From: Streptomyces sp. NBC_00464
GTDB taxonomy: Bacteria > Actinomycetota > Actinomycetes > Streptomycetales > Streptomycetaceae
Assembly: GCF_036013915.1 (NCBI RefSeq)
Contig: NZ_CP107901.1
Span: 124,001 to 188,000 of the forward strand
Length of the DNA stretch: 64,000 nt
Reading direction: 5' to 3'
Position 1 is the first letter of the stretch; every line of letters begins with the position of its first letter. Below the pieces are notes generated by a model. It did no database searches. It worked only from the letters and a program-made list of their open reading frames with translations, and had not been told where the DNA came from. A program made the position numbers and the translations under genes. This document shows, piece after piece, positions 38,247-58,902 of this stretch.

Positions 38247-41200
38247 TCCCGTTGTCATTCGCCCAGAGCCGGATGTGGATCCTTCACAAGCTCGAAGGCC
38301 CGTCAGCGACTTACAACGTCCCGATCGTGCTGCGCCTGGAAGGGGCCCTGGACACCGCGGCCCTGGCCGCGGCGGTGACGGACGTGACCGACCGGCACGA
38401 GAGCCTGCGCACCCTCGTCGTCGAGAACGCCGACGGCACCGCGGAGCAGCGGGTGCTGCCTGCGGAGGAGGCGGACTTCGCCTTCCGCGTGGTCGACGTC
38501 GCCGCGGACGCGGTGGCCGCCGCACAGCACGAGGCCGCCTGCGAGCCGTTCGACCTGGACACCGAGCTTCCCCTGCGGACGACCGTGCTGCGCATCACCC
38601 CGCAGGAGCACGTCCTGGTGTTCGTGTTCCACCACATCGCCGCGGACGGCTCCTCGGTGGCGCCGTTCGTCAGGGACCTGGTGTCGGCCTACACCGCCCG
38701 CCTCGACGGGAACGCGCCGGACTGGCAGCCGCTGCCGGTGCAGTACAAGGACTACACCCTGTGGCAGCGCCAGGTGCTGGGTGAGGAGGACGACCCGGAG
38801 AGCATCGTCTCCGCGCAACTGGCGTACTGGAAGAAGGAACTGGCCGAGATACCGCAGCCTCTGGAGCTGCCGCTGGACCGGCCGCGCCCGGCCTCGGCCA
38901 GCCACCGCGGCGGCGAGGTCGCCTTCCAGCTGTCACCCGAGTTGATGAGCCGGCTGAACAAGCTGGCCACCGACCGCGGCGCCACGGCGCCCATGGTGGC
39001 CCAGGCCGCGCTGACGGTGCTCCTGAACAAGCTGGGCGCGGGCGTGGACGTGCCGATCGGCAGTCCGATCGAGGGACGCGGGGACGAGCAGCTCGACGAT
39101 CTCATCGGGTTCTTCGTCAACACCTGGGTGCTGCGCGCCGATCTGTCGGGGAACCCGTCCTTCGGTGACCTCCTGGAGCAGGTGCGGGACAAGGCCCTCA
39201 CCGCGTACGACAACCAGGACGTGCCCTTCGAGCGGCTGGTGGAGCTGCTCAACCCGGACCGCACCACCGCGTACATGCCGCTGTTCCAGACCGCGCTGGG
39301 CTGGCAGTTCGTATGGGGCGAGATCGAGATGCCCGGCCTGCGGGTCACCCCGGTCCCGGCTGCCACCGGCACCGCGAAGTTCGACCTGCTCATCAACATC
39401 GTCCCGAACACGAACGGCGGTACGTACGGGCTCCTGGAGTACGCGACGGACCTGTTCGACCACTCCACGGCCGAGCGCATCATCGGCCGGTTCGTACGCA
39501 TCCTGGAACAGGCGCTGGAGGACCCGACGCTGCCCGTCGGCGCCATCGACGTGCTCTCGGCGGACGAACGGGACTGGCTGCTGCGCGGCGCCAACGACAC
39601 GGCGGCGCAGGTGTCCGAGCGGACCATCGACGCGATCTTCACCGAGCGGGCCGCCGCGACACCGGACGCCGTGGCCGTGGTGCGCGGCGACGTGACACTG
39701 ACGTACCGCGAGGTGGACGAGCGGGCCAACCGGCTGGCCCGGGTGCTGACCGCGCGGGGCGTGGCGCCCGAGTCGGTGGTGGGGGTGGCCCTGTCCCGGT
39801 CACCGGAGTGGGTGGTGGCGATCCTCGCTGTGCTGAAGGCCGGCGGTGCCTACCTGCCGGTGGACCCCGCCTACCCGGCGGAGCGCGTGGCGTTCATGGT
39901 CGCCGACTCCGGGGCGCTCCTGGTGCTCGGGGACGCGGCTTCGGCGGAGCAGCTGCCGCAGCTCGCCGCGCCCGTGATCCGCCTGGACGACCCGGACGTG
40001 GCCACGGCGCTGGCCGCCGCCGGCCCGGGTCCCGTGACCGACGCCGACCGGCGCGGCCCGGTGAGGGTGGCCAACACGGCGTACGTCATTTACACCTCGG
40101 GTTCGACCGGCACACCCAAGGGGGTGGCGGTCAGCCACGCGGGCATGGCCAGCCTGGTCGCGACGGAGGCCGAGCGGCTTGCGGTGACGCCGGACAGCAG
40201 AGTGCTTCAGTTCGCCTCGCCGAGCTTCGACGCCTCGCTCTGGGAGTGGGGAATGTCCCTGCTCGCGGGAGCCGCGCTCGTGCTGGCCGGCCCGGACGAG
40301 CTGGCCGCGGGCCAACCGCTGGTCGAGACGATCGCCGCCCACGGGATCACCCACGCGACCCTGCCGCCGGCGGTGCTCGCGGCGCTGCCCACGGGCTCGC
40401 TGCCGAGCGTGCGGACGCTGGTGGTCGGCGGCTCGGCGTCCTCGCCGGACCTGGTGGCGCAGTGGTCCGCCGGGCGGCGCATGATCAACGGCTACGGCCC
40501 GACGGAGATCACCGTCTGCGCCGCCATGAGCTCGGCGATGGTGGGTGACGGCCGTACCCCGCCGATCGGCCGGCCGATCGCCAACACCCAGGTCTATGTG
40601 CTGGACACGGCGCTGCGCCCGGTCGCCCCCGGCGTCGCCGGTGAGCTGTACATCGCCGGTCCGGGCCTCGCCCGCGGCTACCTCGGGCAGAGCGGGCTGA
40701 CCGCGAACCGGTTCGTCGCCAACCCCTTCGGCGCGCCGGGCACCCGGATGTACCGCTCCGGGGACCTCGTGCGCTGGAACAAGGACGGCGAGCTCGAGTA
40801 TCTCGGGCGCACCGACTTCCAGGTCAAGATCCGGGGATTCCGGATCGAGCTGGGGGAGATCGAGCACGCGCTGACGACGCACGCCGGTGTGGCACAGGCG
40901 GCGGCCGTGGTGCGGGAGACCCCGCAGGGCGACAAGCAGCTCGTGGGTTACCTGGTCCCCAAGCCGTACGCCGCGGCCTCCGTGGCCGACGCGCAGGTGG
41001 ACGAGTGGCGCGACCTCTACGACGACAGTTACGCCGACTCCAGCGACGGACAGCTGGGCGACGACTTCCAGGGCTGGAACTCCAGCTACACCGGCGAGCC
41101 GCTCCCGCTCGACGAGATGCGGGAGTGGCAGGACGCGGCGGTGGCCCAGGTGCTGCGGTTCGCGCCGAAGCGGCTGCTGGAGATCGGCGTGGGTTCCGGT

Positions 41201-44200
41201 CTGCTCCTCGCGAAGATCGTCGACGGGGTGGAGGAGTACTGGGGCACCGACATCTCGGGCACGGTGGTGGAGCGGGTCCGCGTGCAGGCCGAACAGGCCG
41301 GCTACGGCGACCGGGTCCGGGTGAGCGCCCAGTCCGCCGACGACATCACCGGACTGCCTCGCGGCCGGTTCGACACCATCGTCCTCAACTCGGTGGTGCA
41401 GTACTTCCCGAACGTCGACTACCTGGACGAGGTGCTGCGCCAGGTGGTGGAGCTCCTCGCACCCGGCGGCCGCATCATCGTCGGTGACGTCCGCAGCGCC
41501 GCGACCCGCAGCTTCATGCAGACCGCCATGCAGCGTGCCGCCCACCCGCACGCCTCGTACGAGGAGCTGCGGACGCTGGTGCAGCGCGAGCTGCTCGCCG
41601 AGCGGGAACTGACCATCGCCCCGGAGTGGTTCACCCAGTGGGCGGCGGGCGCGCCCGTCGACGTCGACATCCGGCTGAAGCCCGGACAGGCGCACAACGA
41701 GCTGACCCGGCACCGCTACGAGGTGATCCTGCACAGCCGCCCGGCCGACGTGCTCGACGTGAGCGACGTGCCGTCGGTGCCGTGGGGCGGGCACGTCCAC
41801 GACCTGGCCGACCTCGGCCGCCTCGCGGACCGGGCCGACGGCCCGGTCCGGGTCACCGGGATCCCCAACGCGCGTCTGGTCGAGGAAGCCGCCCTGACGG
41901 CGGCGACCGGTCTGCTGCACCTGGTCTCCCGGCCCGGTGCGCCCCTCGATCCCCAGGAACTGCTCCAGTGGGCCCGCTCGAAGGGCCGCGACGCGGTTCT
42001 CACCTGGTCGGGAGAGGACACGCGCTGCTTCGACGCGGTGCTGCTGCCCGGGCAGCGCAACGTCTCGGGCGCGTTCGTGCCCGGCCCCGCGACCGGCCGG
42101 TCCCTGGCGAACGACCCCGCGCTGGCCCGGTCGATCGGCCCGCTGCTCCTCGAACTGCCCGACTACCTGCGCGAGCGGCTGCCGGACTACATGGTCCCGC
42201 CCGCGTTCGTGCCGCTCTCGGAGCTGCCGCTGACCCCGAACGGGAAGCTGAACCACCGGGCGCTGCCCGCCCCGGACTACGGCCAGGCATCGACCGGCCG
42301 GGCACCGCGCAACGAGGTGGAGGAGACCCTCAGCGGGCTCTTCGCCGAAGTGCTCGGCGTGCCCAGCGTCGGCATCGACAGCGACTTCTTCGCCAGCGGC
42401 GGGGACAGCATCCGCTCCATCCAGATCGTCGCGCGGGCCAGGTCGCGGGGCATCGAGGTCAGTACGCGGGAGATCTTCGAACTCCGCACGGTCGCCCGGC
42501 TCGCGGAGCTGGTCGAAGGACGCGGGGACGAGCGCGTCACCCTGGCCGAGCTGCCGGGCGGCGGCACGGGTTGGGCCCCGCTGATGCCGACGGCGAAGCA
42601 CGTGCTCGGGCTCGGCGGCGGCCTCGGCCGGCTCTCCATGTCCATGATGCTGACGCTGCCCGAGGACATCGACCGCGCGGGCCTGGTGGCCACGGTGCAG
42701 GCCGTCCTGGACCGGCACGACGTGCTGCGTTCCCGGCTGGACCGGACGCGGCAGGGCCTGTCGGTCGAGCCGGCCGGCAGTGTGGACGCCGGGACGCTGC
42801 TGCGGCAGGTCCGTTACGGCGACGCCGACGCGCACGCCGAACTGGACGCGGCCGCGGACCGGCTCGACCCGGACGCGGGCGTCATGGCGCAGTTCGTGTG
42901 GTTCACCTCCGACACGGAGGCGGACCGCCTGCTGGTGGTGCTGCACCACCTGGTCGTCGACGGGGTGTCATGGCGGCTCCTCGTACCGGAATTCGCCTCG
43001 GCCTGGCAGCAGGTCCAGGGCGGCCGTGCCGCACAACCCGCGACACCGGGCACCTCGCTGCGCCGGTGGGCGCACGCCCTGGCCGACGAGGCGGTCCGTC
43101 CCGAGCGGGTGGCGGAGCTGCCCGTGTGGCAGCGGATCCTGCACGACGACGAGCCGGTGCTCGGAGCACGCGAACTGGACCCGGCACTCGATGTCGCCGC
43201 CACCGTGGACACCGTGCGCGTCCAGGTACCGGCGGATGTCACCGAAGCCGTCCTGACCCAGGTGCCCGCGGTGTTCCGGGGCGGGGTCGACGACGGTCTG
43301 CTGGCCGCACTGGCTCTGGCGCTGGCCCACTGGCGCCGGACGCGGGGTGTGCCCGCCTCCTCGGCGCTGGTCCGCCTGGAAGGGCACGGCCGGGAAGAAG
43401 AGGCGGTGCCCGGCGCGGACCTGTCCCGCACGGTCGGCTGGTTCACCGCGATGTACCCGGTACGCCTCGACACGGCCGGCATCGACGTGGCGGACGCCTT
43501 CGCGGGCGGTCCGGCCATCGGCCGGGCGATCAAGGCGGTCAAGGAGCAGCTGCGGGCGGTTCCGGGCGACGGCATCGGCTTCGGCCTGCTGCGCCATCTC
43601 AACCCGGAGACGGCCGCCGCGCTGAGCACCGAACGGGAACCGCAGATCGGGTTCAACTACCTCGGCCGGACCTCCGGCGGGGCCGTCCCCGAGGACCTGC
43701 GGGGCCAGGGCTGGGTGCCGGACGGCACGCTGCCCGACCTGATCGCCGCGCCGGACGCGGACATGCCGGTGATGTCGGCGCTGGAGATCAACGCCGTGGC
43801 CACCAGCACCGCCGACGGCGAGGAGCTGACCGCCTACTTCGGCTTCCCCACCGGTCTGCTCTCCCGGGACGAGGTGAACGAACTGGCCGGACTGTGGGTC
43901 CAGGCGCTCACCGCCCTGGCCCGGTTCGCCGCGACCCCCGAGGCCGGCGGACTGACCCCGTCGGACACGCGGCTGGTCGCCGTGAGCCAGCAGGAGATCG
44001 ACACCTGGGAGGCCCGGTTCGGCCACCTCGCCGAGGTGTGGCCGGTGACCTCGGCGCAGTCCGGGATCATCTTCCACTCGATGCTGGCGGGATCCTCGTT
44101 CGACGCCTACCACGTGCAGTTGGTCTTCCACCTCTCCGGCGAGGTCGACCCGGAGCGCATGCGCCGGGCCGGACAGGCGCTGCTGGAGCGCCACGCCGGC

Positions 44201-47179
44201 CTCCGGGCGGCGTTCGTCAACCAGGCCGACGGCGATCTCGTCCAGGTGATCCCGGCGGCGGCGGCGACCCTGCCGTGGCAGCACCTCGACCTGAGCGGGC
44301 ATGCCGAGGCGGAGAGCACCGAGTCGTTCGAGCGCTTCCTCGCCGAGGACCGGGACGCCCACTTCGACGTGGACACCCCGCCGCTGATCCGGCTGGCCCT
44401 GGTCACCCTGGAGCCCGGCCGGTTCGAACTCGTGCTGACCGTCCACCACGCGCTGGCCGACGGCTGGTCCGCGCCCCTGCTGCTCCAGGACCTGCTGCAG
44501 CTCTACGGCTCCCACGGCGACGCGAGCGGTCTGCCGGCCACGCGCAGCTACGGGGAGTTCCTGGCCTGGTACACGAGGCAGGACCGCGACGAGGCGGCCC
44601 GCGCCTGGGCCGCCGAGCTGGAAGGGGTCGACGAGCCCACCCTGCTCGTGCCGGGGGCCACGATCGAGGACGGCCTCGACCAGATCGAGATCGGCCTCCC
44701 GCTCGACGTGTCCGAGGCACTCAACCGGCGCGCCTTGGAACTCGGCATCACCATCAACACCGTCATCCAGGGCGCCTGGGCCCTGCTGCTCGGCCAGCTC
44801 ACCGGCCGCCAGGACGTGGTGTTCGGCGCGACCGTCTCCGGGCGCCCGGCCGCGGTGACCGGCGTCGAGTCGATGGTCGGCATGTTCATCAACACCCTTC
44901 CCGTACGCGTCGCACACCAGCCCGGCAACACCCTCACCGAGCTGCTCACTCGGCTCCAGGGCCGGCAGGCCGCCCTGCTGGAGCACCACCACTACAGCCT
45001 GACCGAGATCCAGCAGGCCGTCGGTGTGCAGACCCTCTTCGACTCGCTGGTCGTCTTCGAGTCGTACCCGGTCGACGAGGAGGGCATCGGGGCCGCCACC
45101 GAGGCCGCGGACGGCATCGTCATCGGCGGCATGCGCACGTCCAACGGCACGCACTACCCGCTGGCCCTGATGGCGGCGGTCGAGAAGAACCTCCAGTTCC
45201 TCCTCCAGTTCACGCCCAGCGCCTTCGACCGGGACACGGTCGCGGAGTACGGGGCCCGCTTCGTACGCATCCTGGAGCAGCTGGCGGCCGACCCCGGGCA
45301 GCGGACCGCGCGGCTCGACGTCCTGGAGCCGGCCGAGCGTGACCGCCTCCTGGTCGAGTTCAACGACACGGCCGTCCCGACCCCGGACATCACCATCACC
45401 GGGCTCGTCGAGGCACGGGCGGCGGAGCACCCGGACGAGGTCGCCGTGGTCGCCGGGGCCGAATCGCTCACCTACCGCGAGGTGGACGCACGGGCCGACA
45501 GCCTGGCGCGCGAACTGGCCGGCCGTGGCGTGGGCCCGGAGTCGGTGGTCGCGGTCTCGCTGCCGCGCTCGGCGGACCTGGTGGTCGCCCTGCTCGCGGT
45601 CCTGAAGGCGGGCGGCGCGTATCTGCCCGTCGACCCCAAGTACCCCAGCCACCGTCTGGCGGCCATCTTCGACGAGGCGCGCCCGCGCCTGGTCCTGACG
45701 GACTCCACGACGGTCGCGGTGCTGCCGGAGCACGATGCCCCGGACGTCCTCCTCGACACGCTCGACCTGTCCGGCGACGCACCACGCGCCGAACGTCCGC
45801 TCCATGCACAGCAGTTGGCGTACGTGATGTACACCTCCGGCTCCACCGGCAAGCCCAAGGGCGTCGCCATCACCCACGAAACCGTGGTCAACGGCGTGCT
45901 GCGGCTGGCCCCCCTCGTGGGCCTGGAGCCCGGCAAGCGGCTCCTCGCGGGCACCTCGGTCAACTTCGACGTCTCGGTGTTCGAGATCTTCACGACCCTC
46001 GCCACCGGCGGTGTCGTCGAAGTGGTCCAGGACGTCCTGGCCCTGAGCGGCCCGAAGGGCTGGAGCGGGAGCGTCATCTCCACCGTGCCGTCCGCCTTCG
46101 CCGAACTCGTCGACGACATCCGCGAGCGCACCAGCGTGGAGACCGTCGTCTTCGCCGGTGAGGCCCTGCCCACCTCGCTCGTCGACAGGACGCGCGCCGC
46201 CTTCCCGGGCGTACGGATCGTCAACGCCTACGGGCAGAGCGAGTCGTTCTACGCCACCGCCTTCACCGTCGACGGCGACACGGCTCTGCCGACAGGCAGC
46301 GCGCCCGTCGGCACCCCGCTCGGCAACATGCGCGCCTACGTCCTCGGCCCCGGCCTGACGCCGGTACCGCCGGGCGCGGTCGGTGAGCTGTACGTCGGCG
46401 GCAACGTGGGCCGCGGCTACCACGGCCGCGCGGAACTGACCGCCGAGCGCTTCGTCGCCGACCCGTTCGGCCCGCCCGGTGTGCGCATGTACCGCACCGG
46501 TGACCTGGTCCGTATCAACGGCGATGACCAGCTGGAGTACGTGGCACGCGGGGACGCGCAGGTGAAGGTGCGCGGCTTCCGGATCGAGCCGGCCGAGATC
46601 GAGGCCGCGCTCACCGCGCACCCCGGCGTCGCGCAGGCCGCCGTCATCGCCCGCGAGGGGCGCGGCAGCGGCGCGGGCAAGCGGCTGGTCGCCTATGTCG
46701 CACCCGTCGTCACCGGCGGGGACCCGACGGCCGACGGCCCCCGCGGCCCGGAGAGCAAGGAGCTGCACGCCTTCGTGGCGGAGCGGCTGCCGGACTTCAT
46801 GGTGCCGTCCGCCTTCGTGGTCCTCGACCGGCTGCCGCTCGCCCCGAACGGCAAGCTGGACAGGGCCGCGCTGCCCGAACCGGAGTACACCGGAGCCACC
46901 TACCGGGCGCCACGCACCGCGCGCGAGGAGGCCCTGGCCGCGCTGTTCGCCGAGGTGCTCGGCGTGGACCGGGTCGGCATCGACGACGGCTTCTTCGAGC
47001 TCGGCGGGCACTCCCTGCTCGCCACCCGGCTGATCGGCCGTGCCCGGACCGTGCTGGGGATCGAGGTTCCCGTCCGCAAGATATTCGACCTGCCGACAGT
47101 GGCCGCGCTCGCCTCATGGTCGGAGGAATCGGCCGCCCCCCGTCGCCCCGGCCTGCGCAAGATGTTCGTAGAGGAGTAG
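38243..47179 (+). CDS. NRPS 2: C-A(N-methyltransferase)-PCP-E-C-A-PCP (two modules)
   Basis: 2978 aa from the ATG at 38243, overlapping the previous stop (ATGA). C1 about 1-430 (HHIAADG about 130); A1 from about 450 ([11 protein letters not shown] about 613). An N-methyltransferase is inserted between the A8 and A10 motifs at about 915-1290, with the SAM loop [15 protein letters not shown] about 975-990. PCP1 GGDSIRS about 1388; E about 1443-1910 (HHLVVDG about 1568, [10 protein letters not shown]); C2 about 1930-2350 (HHALADG about 2069); A2 with [11 protein letters not shown] about 2527; PCP2 about 2915-2960. The A1 pocket reads about D-A-W-T-V-G-G-V-C-K, a Phe-type pattern with extra space, giving a D-N-methyl aromatic-like residue. 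The A2 pocket, about D-V-F-T-V-A-A-Y-A-K, nearly matches NRPS 1 A1, giving a second (L-) piperazate. Confidence 0.92.
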
Positions 47180-47184
47180 AAGCA

Positions 47185-50100
47185 ATGATTCCGCTGTCAT
47201 ACGCACAACGCCGTATGTGGATCCTCCACCAGATGGAGGGCGGGTCGGAGAACTGGAACATGCCGGCCGCCTTCCGCCTGACCGGCGCCCTGGACCGGGG
47301 CGCCCTGGTCGCGGCGATCCGTGACGTGGTCGACCGGCACGAGATCCTGCGCACCGTCTACGGCACGAACGACGACGGTGAACTGTTCCAGCGGATCCTC
47401 CCCACGGCCGAGGCCGCCCCGGAGGTGCCGGTCGTCGAGGTGGCGCCCGAGGACGTCTCCCGCGTGGTCGGCGAGGCCATGGTGTACCGGTTCGACCTGA
47501 CGGCCGAAGCCCCGCTGCAGGTACGCCTGTTCCGCATCTCGCCACAGGAACACGTCCTGGTCCTGGTCATCCACCACATCGCCACGGACGGCAGCTCCGG
47601 CGCACCACTGGTACGGGACCTGGCCGCGGCCTACACCGCACGTCTGGACGGCCGGGCGCCGGGGTGGGAGCCGCTGCCGGTCCAGTACAAGGACTACACG
47701 ATGTGGCAGCGCGAGCTGCTGGGGGAGCTGACGGACCCGGACAGTCTCGCCGCGAAGCAGGTCGCGTACTGGCGCAAGGAACTGGCCGGGGTGCCACAGC
47801 CGCTGAACCTGCCGCTGGACCGCCCGAGGCCCGTCCAGGCCAGCGGGCGCGGCGCCACCGTCGGCTTCACGGTCGAGCCGGAGGTGTCGGCAGGGCTGCA
47901 GAAGCTGTCCGACGAGCGCGGGGCGACCCTGTCGATGGTTCTGCATGCCGCGCTCGCCGTGCTGCTGCGCAAGCTCGGCGGCGGGGACGACGTGACGATC
48001 GGCAGCTCGATCGCCGGACGGACCGACGAGGCCCTCGCCGATCTGGTCGGGTTCTTCGTCAACACCCAGGTGCTGCGGGCGGACCTCTCCGGCGACCCGT
48101 CGTTCACCGGCCTGCTCGCCCAGGTGCGGGACAAGTCGCTGGCGGCCTACGAGCACCAGGACGTGCCGTTCGACACGCTGGTCGAGGCGGTCAACCCCGA
48201 ACGCTCCGCCGCGTACCAGCCGCTGTTCCAGGTGATGCTCGGCCTGCAGAACTACGCACGGCCCGAACTCGAACTCGCCGGACTCACCCTGGAGGTCGAG
48301 CAGACCATCCCGTCGATCTCCAAGGTCGACCTGTTCTTCAACCTGGCCACGGACGAATCGGGGGTGCTGCGGGGCGACCTGTCGTACGCGACCGACGTGT
48401 TCGACCGGGAGACGGCCGAGGTGATCGCCACCCGGTTCGGGCGCGTCCTGGAGCAGCTGGTCGGCGATCCCGGCATGAGCGTCGGGGACGTAGACGTGCT
48501 GGGCGTGGCCGAGCGCCATCACCTCCTGACGGAGGTGAACGACACTGCCGAGCCGACCCTGGAGCTGGTGGAGGCGGTACGCCGGCAGGTCCGGGCGACA
48601 CCGCAGGCGCTCGCCGTCATCGGCGAGGAGGAGTCGCTCACCTACCAGCAGCTGGAAGCGCGCTCCAACCAGCTGGCGCACTGGCTGACCGGCCAGGGGG
48701 TGCGGGCGGAGTCCCGGGTCGCGGTGTGCCTGCCCCGGACCGTGAACCTGGTGGTGGCGCTGCTCGCGGTGCTCAAGGCCGGCGGAGCCTATGTCCCCGT
48801 CGATCCGGACCACCCGCGGTCCCGGATCGACTACATCTTCGAGCACGCGGACCCGCTGCTGGTGCTCGACGCCGAGGCGCTGGCAGGCGTGGACTGGCCG
48901 GCCCTTGCGGACACGGCTCCGGACGTCGTCGTCCGGCCCGAGAACGCCCAGTACGTGATCTACACCTCGGGGTCGACGGGGAAGCCGAAGGGCGTCGCGA
49001 TTCCGCGCGGCGCGGTGGCGAACTACCTGGCCACCAACCAGCGGCGGTTCCCGCTGTCGCCCGGGGACCGGATGCTGTTCAGCACCACCGTGGCGTTCGA
49101 CATGGCGAACACCGAGCTGTACCAGCCGTTCATCTCCGGCGCGACCATGGTGATGGCCGGCAAGGACGTCGTCACCGACCCGGCGGCCGTGCTGAAGCTG
49201 ATACGCCGTCACCGGGTCACCGCGGTGCAGGCCACGCCGGCCTTCTGGCAGATGCTGCTGATGCACGACCCGGAAGCGGCGAAGGACCTGCGGATCATCA
49301 TCGGCGCGGAAGCCGTGCCGGTACGCCTGGCCGAGACACTGGCACGGCAGGCCGCCGAGGTGTTCAACATGTACGGCCCCACCGAGACGGTGACGTGGTG
49401 CACCGAGGCACGCGTGAAGGTGGGGGAGGGCGTCCCGATCGGCAGGCCGGTCGGGAACACCCAGGTGTACGTGCTCGACCCACGGCTGCGTCCGGTCCCG
49501 CGCGGTGTGCCGGGCGAGCTGTACATCGCCGGCGCCGGAATGGCCCGTGGCTACCAGGGCCGGCCGGACCTGACCGCGGAGCGGTTCGTGCCGTGCCCCT
49601 TCGGCCCGGACGGCGCGCGGATGTACCGCACCGGGGACCTGGTGCGCTGGGACCGAAACGGTCAGCTGGAGTACATCGAGCGCACCGACTTCCAGGTGAA
49701 GATCCGGGGCTACCGGATCGAGCTGGGCGAGATCGAACACGCTCTGACCGGGCACCCCGGGGTGGCGCAGGCGGCGGCCGTGGTGCGGGAGAACCAGGAC
49801 GGCGACAAGCGCATCGTGGGCTATGTGATGCCCGAGCCCGCTGTCGCGGAGGCCGCCGGCGGTGTCCAGGCGCTGGTCGACGAACTGCCCGCGTTCCTGC
49901 GGGGGCGGCTGCCCGACTACATGGTTCCCGCCACGCTGATCCCGCTCTCGGAGATCCCGCTGACCCCGAACGGGAAGCTCGACCGCATGGCACTGCCCGC
50001 CGAGGAAACCGGCACGGACACCGAGGTCAGCCGGGGGCCGCGCAACGCCCATGAGGAGAAGGTGTGTTCCTTCTTCAGCGAGCTGCTGGGCGTGGAGCGG

Positions 50101-51003
50101 GTCGGCGTCGACGACGACTTCTTCGCACTCGGCGGACACTCGCTGCTGGCGACCCGGCTCAGCGCCCGAATCCGCGACGAGTTCGGCATCGAGGTGCCGC
50201 TCAGGACGATCATCAAATTCCCCACGGCGGGCGAGCTGGCGTCGGTACTGCTCGTCGCCACCCCCGGGGACTCCTCCGACTCCCTGGAGGTCGTGCTCCC
50301 GCTGAACACCGATCCCGGTACGGGCAAGCCGCCGCTGTGGTTCTTCCACGGCGGAGGCGGCCTCGGCTGGACGTACTTCAGCTTCGCCGCGTACGTACCG
50401 GACTATCCCGCCTACGCCCTGCAGGCCCGTGGCTCCGACGGCGTGGACAAGATGGCGGACTCGGTGGAGGAGATGGTCGAGGACTACGTCACCGAGATGC
50501 TGAAGATCCAGCCGGAGGGGCCGTTCCACCTGATCGGCTGGTCCTACGGCGGCACGGTCGTCCAGGCCGTCGCCGAGGCGCTCCACCGGCGCGGGCACGA
50601 GATCGCCTTCGTGGCCATTCTGGACTCCCAGCCGGGCGGGCACGGCTTCACGGAGATCCACGCAGGCAAGACGCTGACGGACTACCGGGTGGAACTGGAG
50701 GAGTTCTTCGGCCAGTACATCGGCACCGACAACCGGCAGGACTTCCTGGACTCCATGGCGAGGGTCCTCGCCAACAACACGAGCCGCATGATGGATTTCG
50801 AATCGCCGGTCTACCCCGGCGATGTCATCTTCTTCAGCGCGACGCTCCAGGACCAGTCGTACGCGCACCTGTGGAAGCCGTACGTCCTCGGTTCCATCGA
50901 GGTGCACGAGGTGCGCGCCACACACCACGAGATGAACATGCCCTCGGCCGTGGCCGAGGTCATGGCGGTCATCAACCGCAAGCTGGCGGAGCTGCCGGCG
51001 TGA
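47185..51003 (+). CDS. NRPS 3: C-A-PCP-TE (termination module)
   Basis: 1272 aa, ATG 47185 five bases after the NRPS 2 stop, with GAGGAG upstream. C about 1-430 (HHIATDG about 129); A about 450-955 ([11 protein letters not shown] about 589; GKLDRMAL with A10 Lys); [13 protein letters not shown] about 983; TE about 1030-1272 with [13 protein letters not shown] (nucleophile Ser about 1118) and the terminal His region [11 protein letters not shown]. The A pocket reads about D-M-T-Q-I-A-M-T-W-K; Q278 and W331 recall Gly/small-residue pockets, but this is a weak assignment. The TE releases, probably by cyclisation, the assembled peptide. No E domain, so the last residue is L or achiral. Confidence 0.92.
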
Positions 51004-52071: not shown

Positions 52072-53082
52072 ATGTCGATCGGTGCGCAGGCCGTGGCCGT
52101 CGTCGAGCAGCCGTCGCCGCTGACCCATGAAGGAGTGGACGACGCCCGGCGGCGCATCGCCGGCCGCGTGACGCAGACGCCCGTCGTACACAGCGAGGAA
52201 CTGGACCGGGTGGCCGGTGCCCGGCTGTGGCTGAAGGCGGAGAACCTCCAGCGCGGCGGCTCCTTCAAGATGCGCGGCGCGCTGCTGGCCGTGGAGCGGC
52301 TGGCGGGAGCCGGCAGCATCGGCGTGGTCGCGCAGTCCACCGGCAACCACGCCATAGCCGTGGCTCTCGCCGCAGTTCAGTACGGGCTTCCGGCGGTGCT
52401 GGTGCTGCCCGTCGACGCCGCCCCGGCCAAGGTGCGGCGCATCAGGGACATCGGCGCCCAGGTGCTCCAGGCGGGAACCACCCTGGCCGAGCGGATCGCG
52501 GTCGTCGAGGAACTCAAACACACCCGCGGCCTGGACGAGATCGACCCCTACCAGAACCCGGACGTGGTGGCCGGTCAGGCCACCGCCACCGCCGACCTGC
52601 TGCACCAGGTGAGCGCGGCCGCCGGCCGCCTGGACGCGGTGGTGGTGCCCGTGGGCGGCGGCAGCGCGGTGGCCGGCGCCTGCCTGGCCACCGCCGGCCA
52701 GAACATCGACGTGTACGGCGCCGAGCCCAGCGCCGTCCCCGCCCTGACCGCGGCCCTGCGAGCCGGGGGGCCGGTCACCGTCGACGTCCGGCCCACCATC
52801 GCCGACGGGCTGCGCCCCGACCGCATCGGCCAACTCCCCTACGACCTGGTCCATGACACCGTCGCCGGCGTCTTCACGATCGAGGAGAGCGCCATCGCCG
52901 AAGCGCTGCGCCTGATCCTCGTGCACGCCCGGCTGGTCATCGAGCCCGCCGCCGCAACCGCTGTGGCCGGCGCCCTGCGCCTTGCCGCCGAGGGCGGTGC
53001 CCGGGACATCGGGGTGCTGGTCTCGGGCGGCAACGTCGACACCGGCCTCGTGGCATCCCTCCTGGGGGACCGGGCCTCCTGA
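52072..53082 (+). CDS. PLP-dependent threonine/serine dehydratase-like enzyme
   Basis: 336 aa from the ATG at 52072 (GGAG upstream; the frame to 51826 lacks support). Fold-type II PLP enzyme: LWLKAENLQRGGSFKMRGALLAVERL carries the SFKxRG Lys that binds PLP (about residue 64), QSTGNHAIAVALAAVQYGLPAVLVLP, and the phosphate-binding VVPVGGGSAVAGACLATAG. The length fits catabolic threonine dehydratase or serine/hydroxyaspartate dehydratase without an ACT domain. It may deaminate Thr to 2-oxobutyrate for a branched or extended building block, or act on another beta-hydroxy amino acid. It precedes, but is separated by 275 bp from, the building-block operon. Confidence 0.8.
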   Translation: MSIGAQAVAVVEQPSPLTHEGVDDARRRIAGRVTQTPVVHSEELDRVAGARLWLKAENLQRGGSFKMRGALLAVERLAGAGSIGVVAQSTGNHAIAVALAAVQYGLPAVLVLPVDAAPAKVRRIRDIGAQVLQAGTTLAERIAVVEELKHTRGLDEIDPYQNPDVVAGQATATADLLHQVSAAAGRLDAVVVPVGGGSAVAGACLATAGQNIDVYGAEPSAVPALTAALRAGGPVTVDVRPTIADGLRPDRIGQLPYDLVHDTVAGVFTIEESAIAEALRLILVHARLVIEPAAATAVAGALRLAAEGGARDIGVLVSGGNVDTGLVASLLGDRAS

Positions 53083-53121: not shown

Positions 53122-53141
53122 CTGTCCCGCCGGCGGGACAG
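53122..53141. promoter_or_regulatory. Palindromic operator, candidate LmbU-type site 2
   Basis: Perfect 20-bp palindrome CTGTCCCGCCGGCGGGACAG, 217 bp upstream of the first gene of the ligase/aminotransferase/prephenate operon. One base per half-site differs from site 1. Confidence 0.65.
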
Positions 53142-53357
53142 TCCGGCCGGCGGGCGAAATGGGCTTGCGCATCTCCCCGTCCGTCGCAGCTGACGACGGA
53201 TCACATCGACCGTGCATCCTACGGGCGGTCCGGGCAGGGCGACAGGGCCCGGCCCGTGGTCCGGAAATCGAAAGTTTTTGGTTGAACGGTTTCGGGCGGA
53301 GCGGCATGCTCGTCAATACGCCTGAAAACCAGCCGACATGCTGCACGAAAGGCACTC

Positions 53358-53654
53358 GTGATCACACACATTGTTCTTTTCAAGCTCAAGGACGGCATCG
53401 AGCGCTCCGCGCCTTCCGTGGTCGAGGCCGTGGAGTTCGCCAGGGGGGTCGGCAGCAACGTTCCGGAACTCGTTGACTGGCGTGTGGGCTGGAACACCGT
53501 TGACCGGGACATCTCCTACGACTTCGTCGCGCTCGGGGTGCTGCCGGATCTCGCCGCACTGGAGAAGTATCAGGCGAACGAGTACCACCAGGAGTCCGCG
53601 CGGAAATGGCGGGCGATATCCGACTGGGTCGTCGCCGACCTGGAAGACCTCTGA
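53358..53654 (+). CDS. Dabb-domain (dimeric alpha/beta barrel) protein
   Basis: 98 aa from GTG 53358 (GAAAGG upstream). MITHIVLFKLKDGIERSAPSVVEAVEFARGVGSNVPELVDWRVGWN and YDFVALGVLPDLAALEKYQANEYHQE are the pattern of stress-responsive A/B barrel (Dabb) proteins. Relatives include olivetolic-acid-cyclase-like enzymes and many proteins of unknown function. First gene of the operon, 10 bp before the ligase. A cyclase or isomerase role on the pathway intermediate is conceivable but unproven. Confidence 0.8.
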   Translation: MITHIVLFKLKDGIERSAPSVVEAVEFARGVGSNVPELVDWRVGWNTVDRDISYDFVALGVLPDLAALEKYQANEYHQESARKWRAISDWVVADLEDL

Positions 53655-53664
53655 AGGAGGATGG

Positions 53665-55092
53665 GTGTTCACGCAATACGACCCGGAATCCGCTGCGCTC
53701 ACGGACGAGCTGCGCGGTCTGTTCGACGAGTTCGGTGCGGGGAAGTGGTCGGCCGAAGACCTGGAAAGGCATCAGACCGACAAGCTGCGCGAAGTGCTCG
53801 CCTATGTCCGCGCCAATTCTCCGTTCTACCGGGAGAAGCTGAGCGGGATATCTGACGAGGTCATTTCGGGGCTGCGGATCGAAGATATCCGGAACCTCCC
53901 CTTCACCACCAAAGCGGATCTGCAGGAGGCCCAGTTCGACCTGCTCTCGCTCCCCGTCTCCGCGGCCTGGACCTTCTACGAGACCACCGGCACCACCGGA
54001 AGGCCCACCCCGTGTCCCCGCACCAACGGGGACACCATCCACAACAACTCGGTGCTCACCGCCTACTACCGGGACATCCTCGCGCCGCACGGTGACGGCC
54101 AGGTCATCGGCATCTCCGGCCCCACCGAACTGCACGCCACCGGGGACACGTTCGGGGACGTGTGCCGCAACCTGGGTCACGCCGTCGCCAAGATGTGGCC
54201 GCACTCGCCGGTGATCGGATTCGACCGCGCCCTGGAGGTCATGCGGCTGCTGCCGGTGACCGGGCTCTTCTGCACCCCGGGCATGGCCCTGCGGCTGGCC
54301 CAGAAGGCGGTCGAGGCGGGCCTCGACCCCCGGCGCGACTTCTCCCTCAACGTGCTCATGCTCACCGGCGAGCTGCTGTCACCCAGCCTGCGGGACAACA
54401 TCGGCGAGCTCTGGGGGGCCGAGGCGCACAACTGCCTCTACGCGTCGCAGGAGGCCTCCGTCCTCGCGGCGGCCACCGCCGACGGAACGCTGCGCATCGC
54501 ACCGCTGATCAACCTCTACGAGGTGATCGACCCCGTCACCGGTGAGGCGGTGGCGCCAGGACCCGACGGGGTGCGCTACGGCGAACTCGTCATCACGAAC
54601 CTCTACACCGGCGCGAAGCCCCTCGTCCGCTACCGCACCGGGGACATGGTGCGGATGACCGAGGCCGGGCTCGGCGCCGCCGTGCCGGCGCACTCCGTCG
54701 AGCCCGTCGGACGCGTCCGCGACCGGCTCCGCCTCAACGGGCACCTCGTCAACGGCTACGACCTCGAGAACCTGCTGCTGCGCCACTTCCGTGGCTACCT
54801 CGACTACCGGATCACCGTTTCCCACGACGACGCGGGTGCCGACCTGCTGTCGCTGACCCTGAACACCGACCCGGACCGGGACCTGGGCGACGACATCGAA
54901 CGGGCCGTGGCGAGCTGCCGCGAGGAACTGGACACCGCGCTGAGCGTGGACTTCGGCGACCCAGGACCCATCACCAGCACAGGAGCCATGGTCAGCTGGA
55001 AGGCCGCCCGCGTGGTGGACCTCCGCGCCCAGGGCGCCGACGCCTCGGCCGAGTCCCACTCGGCCGAGCGGATCGCCGGGACGAGGGCATGA
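53665..55092 (+). CDS. PaaK/coenzyme F390 synthetase-like acid-adenylating ligase
   Basis: 475 aa from GTG 53665, chosen because GAAGGAGG lies directly upstream and the preceding gene ends at 53654; a frame back to 53371 overlaps the Dabb gene. Core motif FYETTGTTGRPTPCPRT (about residues 100-116), AHNCLYASQEASVLAAA and RYRTGDMVRM as in phenylacetate-CoA ligase relatives. These activate aromatic or cyclic acids as AMP esters and pass them to CoA or a carrier protein. Its stop overlaps the aminotransferase start. It probably activates the acid made by this operon for loading on a PCP/ACP. Confidence 0.82.
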   Translation: MFTQYDPESAALTDELRGLFDEFGAGKWSAEDLERHQTDKLREVLAYVRANSPFYREKLSGISDEVISGLRIEDIRNLPFTTKADLQEAQFDLLSLPVSAAWTFYETTGTTGRPTPCPRTNGDTIHNNSVLTAYYRDILAPHGDGQVIGISGPTELHATGDTFGDVCRNLGHAVAKMWPHSPVIGFDRALEVMRLLPVTGLFCTPGMALRLAQKAVEAGLDPRRDFSLNVLMLTGELLSPSLRDNIGELWGAEAHNCLYASQEASVLAAATADGTLRIAPLINLYEVIDPVTGEAVAPGPDGVRYGELVITNLYTGAKPLVRYRTGDMVRMTEAGLGAAVPAHSVEPVGRVRDRLRLNGHLVNGYDLENLLLRHFRGYLDYRITVSHDDAGADLLSLTLNTDPDRDLGDDIERAVASCREELDTALSVDFGDPGPITSTGAMVSWKAARVVDLRAQGADASAESHSAERIAGTRA

Positions 55093-56120
55093 CGGCCGGC
55101 CCGTCCCTGGCCGACTCCGCCCCCCGGCAGCGGCCGACGCAGCTCGGACTCGGGGCATGGGCGTACGACCGCGGAGAGTTCGTCCCGGCGACCGCCCCCC
55201 GGCTGCCGCTCTCCACCCAGGGCCTGCATTACGGGACCGCGGTCTTCGAAGGAATCCGCGCCTACCCCTCGGACAGCGGGCTGCGGCTGTTCCGGGCGCG
55301 CGAGCACTACGAACGCCTGCTGCGCGGGTGCCGGATCCTGCGCATCACCGGTATCCCCCCGACGGTCCAGGAGCTCATCGACATCACGGTCGAGTTGCTG
55401 CGCAGGAACGCACACGACGGAAACGTCTACATCCGTCCCCTGGCGCACAAGCTCTCCCTGCTGCCGGGCACGCCGCCCGGGGTCTCGCTGGCCGGGGTGT
55501 CCGACGCGCTGTCCCTCACCACGTTCGGATATCCGACCTCCGGAAAAGCCGAGGAGGTGCGCTGCGCCCTCAGCGCCTGGCGGCGCCCCGCCGGCGACGC
55601 GCTTCCCGTCCAGGCCAAGGTCGCCGGCGGCTATGTGACCAGCGCCCTCGCCTGCGACGAGGCGCGCGCGACCGGATACGACGACGCCATCCTCCTGGAC
55701 CGCTGGGGCAACGTCGCCGAAGCGAGTACCGCGAACGTGTTCATGGTGCGCGACGGCGTGCTCGTCACCCCGCCGGCCACCGGCGACCTGCTGCCCGGCA
55801 TCACCAGGGACACCGTGATCACCCTGTGCCGGGAGAGCGGGACGACGGTCCTGGAACGCACCCTCAGTCTTGCGGACCTCTACACCGCCGACGAGGTGTT
55901 CCTCACCTCGACCGGCAAGGGAGTGGCCTCCGTGGTCGAGCTGTCCGGCCGCAACATCGGCAGCGGCACCGCAGGACCGGTCACGGCCCGTGTGGCCGCG
56001 CTCTACCACTCCGCGACGGGGGCCGGGGACGTCGGCCATCCGGAGTGGCTCATCACCGTCCCGCCGTCCGAGCACCTGCCCCACCACCCACGCACGCCAA
56101 GCGAAGGGACCAACCGATGA
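55089..56120 (+). CDS. Class IV (branched-chain-type) aminotransferase
   Basis: 343 aa, ATG overlapping the ligase stop. IlvE family: LGLGAWAYDRGEFVPATAPRLPLSTQGLHYGTAVFEGIRAYP, RPLAHKLSLL, PLP-Lys in VQAKVAGGYVTSALACDEA (about residue 177), EASTANVFMVRDGVLVTPPATGDLLPGITRDTV and FLTSTGKGVASVVEL. It transaminates a 2-oxo acid, in this operon plausibly the product of the BacA-like decarboxylase. A branched-chain oxo acid from the threonine dehydratase branch is an alternative. The next gene overlaps its stop (ATGA). Confidence 0.88.
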   Translation: MTAGPSLADSAPRQRPTQLGLGAWAYDRGEFVPATAPRLPLSTQGLHYGTAVFEGIRAYPSDSGLRLFRAREHYERLLRGCRILRITGIPPTVQELIDITVELLRRNAHDGNVYIRPLAHKLSLLPGTPPGVSLAGVSDALSLTTFGYPTSGKAEEVRCALSAWRRPAGDALPVQAKVAGGYVTSALACDEARATGYDDAILLDRWGNVAEASTANVFMVRDGVLVTPPATGDLLPGITRDTVITLCRESGTTVLERTLSLADLYTADEVFLTSTGKGVASVVELSGRNIGSGTAGPVTARVAALYHSATGAGDVGHPEWLITVPPSEHLPHHPRTPSEGTNR

Positions 56121-56758
56121 TGCCGTCCGACCTGATCTCCCTCCTGCGCCCCGGCTCCCACCAGCCGGTGGTCATCGGCACGCTCGGACCGCCCGGAACG
56201 AGCAGCGAGGTGGCGGCCAAGCGGTACATCGCCCAGGTGACCGGACCCGACGGACCGCGCGTCGACATCCGGATGTACGACACCTACGAGGGGGCGGGAG
56301 AAGCGCTCCAGGCCGGTGAGGTGAGCCATATCGTCGTGGCCAACGCCTACAAGGCCGTCTTCCAGTTCTACATGGACCCGACCCTCGAACTGGCCGGGGT
56401 GTTCGTGATGGACACCCCGCTGTACGGAATCGCCACGCGGCGGGGAGCCGGACCGGCGCCGGACGTCCCGGTCATCTCCACCCACCCCTCGCCCGAGCCG
56501 ATCATCGCCCAGCTCCTGCCCGAACGGCACGAGAGCTTCAAGGTGATCCACGAGGACTCCACCAGCGCCGCCGCCCGCGCGGTCGTGGACGGAAGCGCCG
56601 ATCTCGCGCTGACCACCCTGCCGGCCGCGCAACTGCACGGCCTGGAGTTCATCTCCCGGACCCGGTCCATCTGCATGGTCTGGTCGGTGTTCGGCGCCGC
56701 CGCGGTGCGTACGCACAAGAACAAGAACAAGAAGGAGAGCACCCCGTGCTACTCCTGA
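56117..56758 (+). CDS. BacA-like prephenate decarboxylase
   Basis: 213 aa. Prephenate-dehydratase-like catalytic fold without the ACT domain. It matches bacilysin BacA at the family landmarks: GTLGPPGTSSEVAAKRYI (residues 18-35), FYMDPTLELAGVFVMDTPLYG, VISTHPSPEPIIAQLL, EDSTSAAARAVVDGSADLAL and LEFISRTRSICMVWSVFG. BacA, AerD and SalX decarboxylate prephenate without aromatising it, giving dihydro-4-hydroxyphenylpyruvate. The same is inferred here, opening a route to cyclohexadienyl/cyclohexenyl amino acids. The C-terminus ends in an unusual KNKNKK stretch that overlaps the next gene. Standard dehydratase function is unlikely because the regulatory domain is missing. Confidence 0.85.
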   Translation: MMPSDLISLLRPGSHQPVVIGTLGPPGTSSEVAAKRYIAQVTGPDGPRVDIRMYDTYEGAGEALQAGEVSHIVVANAYKAVFQFYMDPTLELAGVFVMDTPLYGIATRRGAGPAPDVPVISTHPSPEPIIAQLLPERHESFKVIHEDSTSAAARAVVDGSADLALTTLPAAQLHGLEFISRTRSICMVWSVFGAAAVRTHKNKNKKESTPCYS

Positions 56759-57735
56759 ATGGGGACCAGGTACGCCAGGCCCTGCCCGTGGCGCAGGCGC
56801 ACCGGGTGGTGGCCGAGGTGATGCGCAGCTACAGCGCGGGCGACGTCGTCCAGCCGGTGCGCACCGTGCTCGGATCCGGCCGGGACACCTCGCTGTTCGC
56901 CGCCATGCCGTGCCACGTCGTCGGAGAGCTCGACGCGGGATACGGAATGAAGGCGGTGCTGCACGCGCCCGGCAACCACGCCCGGGGGCTGCCGACCCAC
57001 GTGGGTCTGGTGGTGGTGTTCGACCCCGAGACCGCACAGCCGCTGGCCCTGATCGACGGTGCGTCCGTCACCGCCCTTCGTACGGCCGCGGCCTCCGCCG
57101 TGGCGACCGAGGCCCTGGCCGCCCCGGACGCCGGCGACCTGGCCCTGATCGGGGCCGGCACCCAGGCGCGCAGCCATCTGCTCGCGCTGCGGGACATCCG
57201 GCCGCTGCGCAGGGTCCGGCTGTGGAACCGGGGCCGCGCACGGGCCGAGGAGTTCGTGGCCTGGGCGCGGGAGACGGCGGGCATCGACGTCGAGCTGACG
57301 GCCACGCCCGCGGACGCGCTGTACGGCGCCGACCTGGTGTGCACGACGGTCGACACGGTCGAACCCGTGGTCCGGGCGGCAGACCTGGCGGACGGCGTGC
57401 ACATCAACGCCGTCGGCTCCTCCGTCCCGGGCAAGCGCGAGCTGGACGCGGGTGCGGTGGCCTCGTGCACGGTCTTCGTGGACAGCAGAGAGGGCGCCCT
57501 GCGCGAGTCCTCCGAGATCGCGGCGCCCGTCGAGGAGGGGCTGGTCCCCGCAGACCGGCCGCTGACCGAGATCGGCGAGGTGCTCCTGGGCAAGAGCCCC
57601 GGGCGCACCGGCCCCGCCGAGCGCACGCTCTACAAGTCGCTGGGCATGGCCGCGCAGGACGTCGCCTCCGGATTCGCCGTCGTCCGTGCCGCACGGCTTC
57701 TCGGCATCGGCACCGACGTCGAGTTCACCTGCTGA
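56746..57735 (+). CDS. Ornithine cyclodeaminase/mu-crystallin family imine reductase
   Basis: 329 aa from GTG 56746, overlapping the BacA-like gene by 13 bp. Family features: [60 protein letters not shown], Rossmann motif LALIGAGTQARSHLLAL (about residues 138-154), and HINAVGSSVPGKRELDAG. Members include true ornithine cyclodeaminase, SbnB-type enzymes and ketimine reductases. In this operon a ketimine or imine reduction on the prephenate-derived product is most plausible. Conversion of ornithine to proline cannot be excluded, and would compete with piperazate synthesis. Confidence 0.85.
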   Translation: MLLLNGDQVRQALPVAQAHRVVAEVMRSYSAGDVVQPVRTVLGSGRDTSLFAAMPCHVVGELDAGYGMKAVLHAPGNHARGLPTHVGLVVVFDPETAQPLALIDGASVTALRTAAASAVATEALAAPDAGDLALIGAGTQARSHLLALRDIRPLRRVRLWNRGRARAEEFVAWARETAGIDVELTATPADALYGADLVCTTVDTVEPVVRAADLADGVHINAVGSSVPGKRELDAGAVASCTVFVDSREGALRESSEIAAPVEEGLVPADRPLTEIGEVLLGKSPGRTGPAERTLYKSLGMAAQDVASGFAVVRAARLLGIGTDVEFTC

Positions 57736-57760
57736 GACCCCACGGAGAAGGACACACCGC

Positions 57761-58054
57761 ATGACGGCACTACTGATCGGCAACGTCGGAGTCATCGGCG
57801 ACGAGCAGCGCATGGCGGAGTACCGCGCGAAGGTGCTCGACACGCTGCGCCTGTACGGCGGAGGGTTCGTGATCCGGGGCGGGGAGTTCGAGGTGCTGGA
57901 GGGCGGGTGGCATCCCGAGCACATGTCGGTGATGGGGTTCCCCACGGCCGAACACGCCCGTCGCTGGTACGCCTCGCCCGAGTACCGTGCCATCGTCCCG
58001 CTCCGGGACGGCACGCACATGGACCTGGTCCTGGTCGAGGGGGAGGGCGCGTGA
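57761..58054 (+). CDS. DUF1330 protein
   Basis: 97 aa from the ATG at 57761 with CGGAGAAGG. GNVGVIGDEQRMAEYRAKVLDTLRLYGGGFVIRGGEFEVLEGGW and FPTAEHARRWYASPEYRAIVPLRD are the DUF1330 pattern, a dimeric ferredoxin-like alpha/beta barrel of unknown activity. Two small dimeric barrels (this and the Dabb protein) in one operon suggest non-redox isomerisation or cyclisation steps. The stop overlaps the PhzF start (GTGA). Confidence 0.8.
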   Translation: MTALLIGNVGVIGDEQRMAEYRAKVLDTLRLYGGGFVIRGGEFEVLEGGWHPEHMSVMGFPTAEHARRWYASPEYRAIVPLRDGTHMDLVLVEGEGA

Positions 58055-58902
58055 CGACGCCGTCGCGCCGCCGGCGTCGCTTCGCTCAGGTCGATGTGTT
58101 CACCGAGGTCCCCTACGTCGGCAATCCCGTCGCCGTCGTCCTGGACGGCGACGGGATCTCCGACCGGGACATGGCACAGATCGCGCAGTGGACCAACCTG
58201 TCCGAGACGACGTTCGTCGTCCCGCCCACCTCCGGCGAGGCCGACTACAGGCTGCGGATCTTCACCCCGGGCGGTGAGATCCCGTTCGCCGGTCACCCCA
58301 CGCTGGGTTCCGCGCACGCCTGGCTGGAGTCCGGAGGCACACCGAAGAAGCCCGGGGAAGTCACCCAGGAGTGCGGACTCGGGCTCGTACCGGTGCGGAT
58401 CTCCGAAGACGGCCTCGGCTTCCGGGCCCCCGCCCTGCGCCGCAGCGGCCCCCTGGAAGACGGGCATCTGGACCGCATCGCCCGTGGGCTGGGCATCGAC
58501 CGCGCACGGATCGTCGGCCACCAGTGGGTCGACAACGGGCCCGGCTGGGCCGCCGTGCAACTCGCCTCGGCCGATGAGGTACTGGCCCTGAAGCCGGACG
58601 AGCAGCACATGGGCGAGCTGGTGCTCGGCGTGGTCGGCGCGTATCCCGAGGACTCGCCCGTGCAGTTCGAGGCCCGTGCCTTCGCGCTGCCCAAGGGTGT
58701 GCGCGAGGACCCCGTCACCGGAAGCCTCACGGCGGGGCTCGCCCAGTGGCTCATCGGCGCCGGGAAGGCCCCGCGCGACTTCCGGGTCGGCCAGGGCACC
58801 TGCCTGGGACGCCAGGGCGTGCTCACCGTGGAGAGTCACGGCGAGGACATCTGGGTCGGCGGCGCGAGCGTGACCTGCGTCCGCGGCACCCTCGAAGCGT
58901 GA
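58051..58902 (+). CDS. PhzF-family isomerase
   Basis: 283 aa from GTG 58051, which overlaps the DUF1330 stop; a frame back to 57907 is not needed. RRFAQVDVFTEVPYVGNPVAVVLDGDGISD, LSETTFVVPP with the catalytic Glu position of PhzF, RIFTPGGEIPFAGHPTLGSAHAWLE and REDPVTGSLTAGLAQWLI are all diagnostic. PhzF isomerises trans-2,3-dihydro-3-hydroxyanthranilate by shifting a ring double bond. A similar double-bond shift or epimerisation on the BacA-like product is an attractive inference here. Last gene of the operon. Confidence 0.88.
   Translation: MTTPSRRRRRFAQVDVFTEVPYVGNPVAVVLDGDGISDRDMAQIAQWTNLSETTFVVPPTSGEADYRLRIFTPGGEIPFAGHPTLGSAHAWLESGGTPKKPGEVTQECGLGLVPVRISEDGLGFRAPALRRSGPLEDGHLDRIARGLGIDRARIVGHQWVDNGPGWAAVQLASADEVLALKPDEQHMGELVLGVVGAYPEDSPVQFEARAFALPKGVREDPVTGSLTAGLAQWLIGAGKAPRDFRVGQGTCLGRQGVLTVESHGEDIWVGGASVTCVRGTLEA

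Follow-up and report, generated by a model that had tools for sequence, protein, structure and literature searches.

What does a seven-gene operon built around a BacA-like enzyme produce when it lies inside a piperazate-type peptide cluster, and is its chemistry new? The question is raised by a 64,000-nucleotide stretch of Streptomyces sp. NBC_00464 (contig NZ_CP107901.1, positions 124,001 to 188,000; hereafter the window), for which a first-pass annotation had proposed a branch from prephenate without a described counterpart. A new pathway is not supported. The operon is very probably a cyclohexenylalanine cassette in a second, piperazate-type scaffold: its seven genes would convert prephenate into L-3-(cyclohex-2'-enyl)alanine (cyclohexenylalanine) and are attached to a piperazate nonribosomal peptide synthetase-polyketide synthase (NRPS-PKS) cluster. 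This reading, which is drawn from sequence comparison, is given a probability of about 0.87. Proteasome inhibitors of the salinosporamide and cinnabaramide types contain cyclohexenylalanine as their unusual amino acid.

All seven genes are encoded on the plus strand between 53358 and 58902, and the families named for them in the first-pass annotation agree with the Pfam and NCBIfam matches:

53358..53654, plus strand: gene 1, Dabb (dimeric alpha/beta barrel) protein, 98 residues, Pfam PF07876 at 6.1e-15
~53665..55092, plus strand: gene 2, PaaK-type acyl-adenylating ligase, ~475 residues, NCBIfam PaaK-type models, best 1.5e-35
55089..56120, plus strand: gene 3, class IV (IlvE-like) aminotransferase, 343 residues, Pfam PF01063 at 1.9e-46
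56117..56758, plus strand: gene 4, predicted BacA/SalX-type prephenate decarboxylase, 213 residues, Pfam PDT at 2.7e-7
56746..57735, plus strand: gene 5, OCD/mu-crystallin-family NAD(P)H reductase, 329 residues, Pfam PF02423 at 9.8e-70
57761..58054, plus strand: gene 6, DUF1330 protein, 97 residues, Pfam PF07045 at 2.3e-26
58051..58902, plus strand: gene 7, PhzF-family isomerase, 283 residues, Pfam PF02567 at 7e-55

The overlapping stops and starts are confirmed by these coordinates. Four bases are common to the ligase and aminotransferase genes, to the aminotransferase and BacA-like genes and to the DUF1330 and PhzF genes, and 13 bases to the BacA-like and OCD genes. The operon ends at 58902 as proposed; its proposed start at 53122, by contrast, precedes the likely start codon of the Dabb gene, a GTG at 53358, by about 240 bases. 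The ligase start codon is uncertain within a few codons, and the family matches of this protein are both under their cut-offs (Pfam AMP-binding just 2e-5; the PaaK match far under). The aminotransferase reaches 248.4 bits against the branched-chain transaminase model TIGR01122 (cut-off 245.55). The PhzF-family protein has the fold and score of the phenazine PhzF family, with 180.7 bits against TIGR00654 (cut-off 76.2) and alignment to solved PhzF relatives.

The same gene set is found in clusters of the salinosporamide (sal) type, which the first-pass annotation had supposed to use other partners. In Salinispora fenicalii CNT-569 (locus L011), all seven genes occur in the order and strand of the window, each 60-71% identical to its counterpart (Dabb 69%, ligase 67%). 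The genes recognised in S. netropsis as SalA, SalB, SalC and P450 have homologues within a few kilobases of this cassette. The SalC homologue of S. fenicalii aligns with all 597 residues of solved SalC (7s2x) at 1179 bits, and that of S. netropsis at 975 bits. The two cassettes differ in spacing, the S. fenicalii tblastn matches being 36-183 bases apart whereas the window genes overlap tightly, and in scaffold, the SalA/B/C gamma-lactam-beta-lactone machinery of S. fenicalii contrasting with a two-piperazate NRPS-PKS. Six Streptomyces regions (L005-L010, regions G003-G008) likewise hold SalA, SalB, SalC and P450 homologues. The cassette is arranged as in the window in five of them (L005, L006, L008, L009, L010), and in L007 six cassette genes stand together, Dabb being some 40 kb distant. 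A proteasome subunit homologue, the expected type of self-resistance gene, is present in all six and thus in 6 of the 7 salinosporamide-type regions, with none in 80 kb of S. fenicalii. Queries with KtzI and KtzT detected no piperazate genes in the six Streptomyces regions, in contrast with the window. The claim that no described pathway holds this set therefore falls; the cassette is very probably the cyclohexenylalanine block of sal-type clusters.

Published work connects this block with its product. The L-3-cyclohex-2'-enylalanine pathway is reported to be inactive when salX, which encodes a prephenate dehydratase homologue, is disrupted; the residue serves salinosporamide A as a key recognition element (PMC2866466). 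Salinosporamide A is counted among prephenate decarboxylase pathways (PMC10157211). Every strain with a sal cluster is reported to retain the cyclohexenylalanine genes, which are inverted as a block in S. fenicalii, a species that preferentially makes salinosporamides B and D (PMC8609351). It is because of the salX disruption reports and the identical gene set in the S. fenicalii sal cluster that the window operon is very probably a cyclohexenylalanine cassette. The partly reduced ring amino acid foreseen for this piperazate cluster would then be cyclohexenylalanine, very probably so.

Across 392 Streptomyces genomes, which were surveyed for both systems, 16 have a BacA-like match (1e-20), host genome included, and 17 a SalC match (1e-180). 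Both occur in 4, of which 2 appear to be loci already counted (G338 with L009, G342 with L018). As 13 genomes have SalC without a BacA-like match, the cassette is optional in SalC genomes. In genome G287 the SalC match (C1:3554530) lies about 558 kb from the cassette (C1:2996238), although a proteasome subunit homologue adjoins the latter.

Scanning named genome contigs gave 127 BacA relatives; the loci studied are the best 80 of these 127. Co-occurrence was counted by tblastn at 1e-5, because a composition-based gene caller missed genes (e.g. in L011, L046 and L062), over loci no longer than about 20.6 kb, some of which are truncated at a contig end. Of the 80 loci, 47 hold a complete five-gene core (Dabb, ligase, class IV aminotransferase, BacA, OCD), which spans Streptomyces to Photorhabdus and Vibrio. 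All seven families occur in 13 loci, eight of which keep the order of the window (L003, L004, L005, L006, L008, L009, L010, L011), so a chance assembly is not in question; this was also the check proposed by the first-pass annotation, the search for the gene set as a unit in other clusters. The last two genes are swapped in L012 and L020 and the set is rearranged in L018, L022 and L023, all five loci having a PhzF that is only 30-40% identical. DUF1330 is present in 15 loci, PhzF in 16 and DUF2000 in 40, and DUF2000 never accompanies DUF1330 or PhzF. The cassette genes thus divide into a common five-gene core and two mutually exclusive add-ons, an exclusion that is a pattern and not a test, because the loci are related and some are incomplete. 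The ligase is absent from all 16 cupin loci of bacilysin or aeruginosin type. In the bacilysin bacABCDEF-type loci (L064-L068, L070, L072-L078, L080), BacA is 37-39% identical to the window protein, and its partners are a cupin, an SDR protein and a class I aminotransferase, unlike the ligase-bearing window. A search of viral contigs for PhzF relatives gave no confirmed relative.

Alternatively, the cassette might go no further than a dihydro amino acid (2,5-dihydrophenylalanine or dihydrotyrosine), like the Photorhabdus-type operons, and the NRPS would then use that compound. Five of the seven genes do recur in operons of Photorhabdus, Vibrio, Pantoea and Pseudomonas together with a LysE exporter, and in the Photorhabdus-type operon (L042, L043, L047, L049, L050, L054-L056, L059) Dabb, ligase, aminotransferase, BacA and OCD are ordered as in the window. 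However, the gammaproteobacterial operons carry DUF2000 and a CMD-family protein in place of DUF1330 and PhzF, over the full set the window resembles the sal-type cassettes (60-86% per gene), in which both DUF1330 and PhzF are present, and the window BacA groups with sal-type sequences in the BacA tree. A dihydro end product is accordingly unlikely here. The Photorhabdus pathway is reported to make dihydrophenylalanine (Crawford et al. 2011), and the Photorhabdus-type operon is presumably that locus; a literature search by three Photorhabdus locus tags retrieved no paper. Operons of the arrangement Dabb-DUF2000-ligase-aminotransferase-BacA-CMD-OCD-LysE were seen in gammaproteobacteria at L032, L036, L037, L042, L043, L046, L047, L049-L052, L054-L057, L059 and L062. 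The CMD-family gene occurs in 17 loci, and an Lrp-type regulator lies upstream of several gammaproteobacterial operons, which likely make a free, exported dihydro amino acid.

Still less probable, and in our estimate very unlikely, is the proposal that the operon defines a new prephenate branch towards another ring amino acid or a cyclic imine, activated by its own ligase. The OCD family does include cyclodeaminases and imine reductases, the ligase family is acyl-adenylating and uses ATP, and the host scaffold is unlike that of salinosporamide. Yet gene set and order are those of salinosporamide-type clusters, and the nearest solved relatives of the OCD protein are reductases and dehydrogenases (delta1-pyrroline-2-carboxylate reductase and alanine dehydrogenase), ornithine cyclodeaminase being much weaker. 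Nothing was found in support of the cyclic imine suggested in the first-pass annotation. Activation of the final product by the ligase for the assembly line is unlikely as well, because the NRPS has its own phenylalanine-like adenylation (A) domain, with the code DAWTVGGVC.

The identity of the BacA-like protein bears on all of these readings. Its identity is 39-40% with Bacillus BacA (E 3e-41 for the 39% match) and 21% with the PheA of the host genome, so its description as a BacA-type enzyme agrees with its homology, which supports the prediction that it decarboxylates prephenate without aromatising the ring. The protein is a single short domain, for which Pfam gives PDT alone, weakly (31.0 bits, cut-off 25.2), and no ACT regulatory domain; solved structures gave no match at 1e-3. 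A homology search with it returned 115 proteins. Among the 80 loci, many belong to Actinomycetota; Photorhabdus, Vibrio, bacilysin loci and two cyanobacterial cupin-type loci are also represented. In a tree of 81 BacA-family sequences, in which 24 of 78 inner branches are unsupported, the window groups with Streptomyces sp. SDr-06 and S. albicerus (support 100/97), and three more Streptomyces loci, all salinosporamide-type, join this group at 97/93. The notion that the protein simply acts as a prephenate dehydratase in phenylalanine supply, although it passes the Pfam cut-off and many homologues carry that database label, is scarcely tenable and was rejected given a separate 314-residue PheA with a C-terminal extension elsewhere in the genome (C1:3638632, 163.4 bits), the closer similarity to BacA, the lack of a second domain and a clade that also holds Photorhabdus and sal-type sequences (in a tree built without PheA).

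On the cyclohexenylalanine reading, a reaction sequence can be proposed for the seven enzymes. By homology, the BacA/SalX-type enzyme would decarboxylate prephenate without aromatisation and the class IV aminotransferase would install the amino group. The 4-hydroxyl of the ring would have to be lost and the ring partly reduced. For this the OCD-family enzyme, the sole clear NAD(P)H reductase of the set, is the likely hydride donor, and the PaaK-type ligase probably activates an intermediate at the expense of ATP, so that the two together may bring about a reductive loss of the hydroxyl. PhzF would probably shift the ring double bond; it aligns with solved relatives over the conserved stretches NLSET and FAGHPT, which we take to hold the catalytic residues. 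Dabb and DUF1330, both small alpha/beta-barrel folds, could assist isomerisation or elimination. In the literature searched, a role is reported only for salX among the cyclohexenylalanine genes, and removal of the hydroxyl and partial reduction are not described there.

A broader view can be offered tentatively, and is somewhat doubtful as a whole. The five-gene core may be one ancient engine, common to Actinomycetota and Gammaproteobacteria, that turns prephenate into a ring-deoxygenated non-aromatic phenylalanine analogue, with swappable add-ons setting the final ring. The reductive loss of the 4-hydroxyl would then be an undescribed reaction, in which the ligase activates and the OCD enzyme gives hydride with an allylic shift. 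DUF2000 would lead to the dihydro series, PhzF and DUF1330 to the cyclohexenyl series, and the piperazate cluster would be a second scaffold into which the cyclohexenyl version was transferred whole. What the comparison suggests as new is a probable cyclohexenylalanine cassette, itself of a known kind, in a second scaffold, with the alternation of DUF2000 and DUF1330/PhzF as the main new hint. The split between core and exclusive add-ons shows experimenters which enzymes to combine, and the window presents the cassette as a movable unit for different assembly lines, useful for finding more cyclohexenyl peptides.

The piperazate setting of the cassette, also proposed in the first-pass annotation, is borne out by an ornithine N-hydroxylase, an FMN_bind_2 protein and two piperazate-type A domains among the five A domains (Pfam) of three NRPS genes. 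The Pfam-assigned features of the host cluster are the following (PCP, peptidyl carrier protein; C, condensation domain; T, thiolation domain; TE, thioesterase):

18479-19825: ornithine N-hydroxylase
20165-20767: FMN_bind_2 protein, presumably KtzT-like
30459..38246, plus strand: NRPS 1, with A domain codes DVFSVASYA (piperazate-type) and DVPDEALVE
38243..47179, plus strand: NRPS 2, first module with A domain code DAWTVGGVC and an inserted methyltransferase, second A domain DVFSVAAYA (piperazate-type)
47116..51003, plus strand: NRPS 3, C-A-T-TE with A domain code DMTQIGMTW and a terminal thioesterase
52072..53082, plus strand: PALP-fold pyridoxal phosphate enzyme (threonine/3-hydroxyaspartate ammonia-lyase-like), PF00291
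59088..63487, plus strand: ABC transporter pair, free PCP, P450 and type II thioesterase

The code of NRPS 3 differs in one residue or is gapped between readings. Codes of the kind DVFSVASYA and DVFSVAAYA are assigned to piperazate in published clusters (PMC3943440, PMC10888640). The free PCP, P450 and thioesterase lie at 61132-63487, and a PKS, of the sort that would build an acyl side chain, begins at 63606 and continues past the right edge of the window. The P450 at 61503 was rejected as an orthologue of the sal P450s, to which it is only 32-34% identical. The PALP gene was rejected as a cassette member, being present in all four piperazate-type regions and in none of the eight sal-type regions; in one of the four it lies about 40 kb from the cassette.

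The host cluster is also found in Streptomyces sp. SDr-06 (L003/G001) and genome G403, and partly in S. albicerus (L004/G002), whose contig stops just before its cassette; the transporter, PCP, P450 and thioesterase genes are present in all three. In G403 the cassette is 71-92% and the ornithine N-hydroxylase 68% identical, and the A domain codes are those of the window except for DIFHVAAYA in the second piperazate-type domain; no KtzT-like match was found there in 120 kb at 1e-8. An N-monooxygenase of S. griseochromogenes hydroxylates the KtzI substrate (PMC12150314), and the KtzI-like gene of G403 (109792 of the region) may encode this enzyme. In a concatenated tree, the cassettes of the window, SDr-06, S. 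albicerus and G403 form one group (100/100) next to the sal type, and the BacA tree alone suggests that they are nested within it.

The first module of NRPS 2, with its inserted methyltransferase, is probably the loader of cyclohexenylalanine, which would be N-methylated there. Its code DAWTVGGVC is identical in SDr-06 and G403. The SalB-type A domains of the sal-type clusters have DLMNVGGVF-like codes (D[LM][MLS]-type, ending VGGVF) in 7 of 7 clusters, and share V299, G301, G322 and V330 with the NRPS 2 domain. G301 and G322 also occur in one A domain near the cassettes of Streptomyces sp. HM190, Sphaerisporangium and S. griseofuscus. The motif search revealed no A domain in the regions of L021, L027, L044 and L071.

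Several points weigh against the assignment to cyclohexenylalanine. The A domain codes depend on a typed reference, and the G301/G322 signature carries little weight: all six A domains of a Lentzea cluster lack it, and a background set of 25 A domains from 30 loci, most of them serine-type, has it once. The BacA-like gene of S. fenicalii is equated with salX from its position and homology and not from a record name. The product assignment is transferred from another scaffold, since this is no salinosporamide cluster and the host genome holds no SalC homologue at E 1e-180. Lastly, branching among the sal-type cassettes is weak in the concatenated tree, which for this reason gives no direction of transfer.

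Peptides of comparable composition have been described. The title of Hagar et al. 2024 (Org Lett 26:4127, cited in PMC13262482) reports the piperazate-guided isolation of cyclohexenylalanine-containing nonribosomal peptides, caveamides A and B, from an actinomycete. Compared by title alone, this combination of residues is the composition predicted from the window beforehand, and the piperazate-type scaffold of the window may belong to the caveamide class. The azinothricin-type clusters of polyoxypeptin and diperamycin resemble the window in having two piperazate A domains (DVFSVASY-type and AAY-type), a C-A-PCP-E-C-A-PCP layout (E, epimerisation domain) and an ABC pair, PCP, P450, TE and PKS genes of like size (PMC3943440, PMC10888640). 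Similar to the window are also the PKS side and PCP-P450-TE trio of polyoxypeptin-type clusters (PMC3943440) and the diperamycin codes DVFSVASY and DMTQVGWV (PMC10888640). In the available passages on azinothricin-type clusters the cassette is absent, and those of the diperamycin paper (PMC10888640) contain no wording on PhzF or cyclohexyl groups.

Other settings of the cassette genes were encountered among the loci. In Streptomyces sp. HM190 (L015), the core operon is flanked by NRPS genes with an A domain DAWQIGGVC; DUF1330 is missing, and PhzF is distant and on the opposite strand. Sphaerisporangium and Nonomuraea (L020 and L012) combine the cassette, its PhzF divergent, with an NRPS and with a P450 that matches the sal-type P450 at 57-59% identity; the regions examined gave no SalA/B/C match, and they possibly represent another host scaffold. 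In L014, L017 and L038 Dabb lies directly upstream of BacA with no other cassette genes. At L029, L048, L053, L058, L063, L079, L081 and L082, BacA has as neighbours DUF2000, an FGE-sulfatase/formylglycine-enzyme-like protein and, in many cases, an APC transporter, with neither PaaK ligase nor class IV aminotransferase. These loci, from Bacillota, Cyanobacteriota, Campylobacterota and Actinomycetota, possibly encode a further undescribed BacA pathway.

Within the window, a two-carrier-domain protein followed by a free-standing ketosynthase lies at 14865-17540, near SnoaL-like and polyketide-cyclase-like genes, and is also present in SDr-06. To the right of the window (L120), at about 89-96 kb in window coordinates, S-adenosylhomocysteine hydrolase and S-adenosylmethionine synthetase genes lie near the end of the PKS and perhaps supply the methyl donor.

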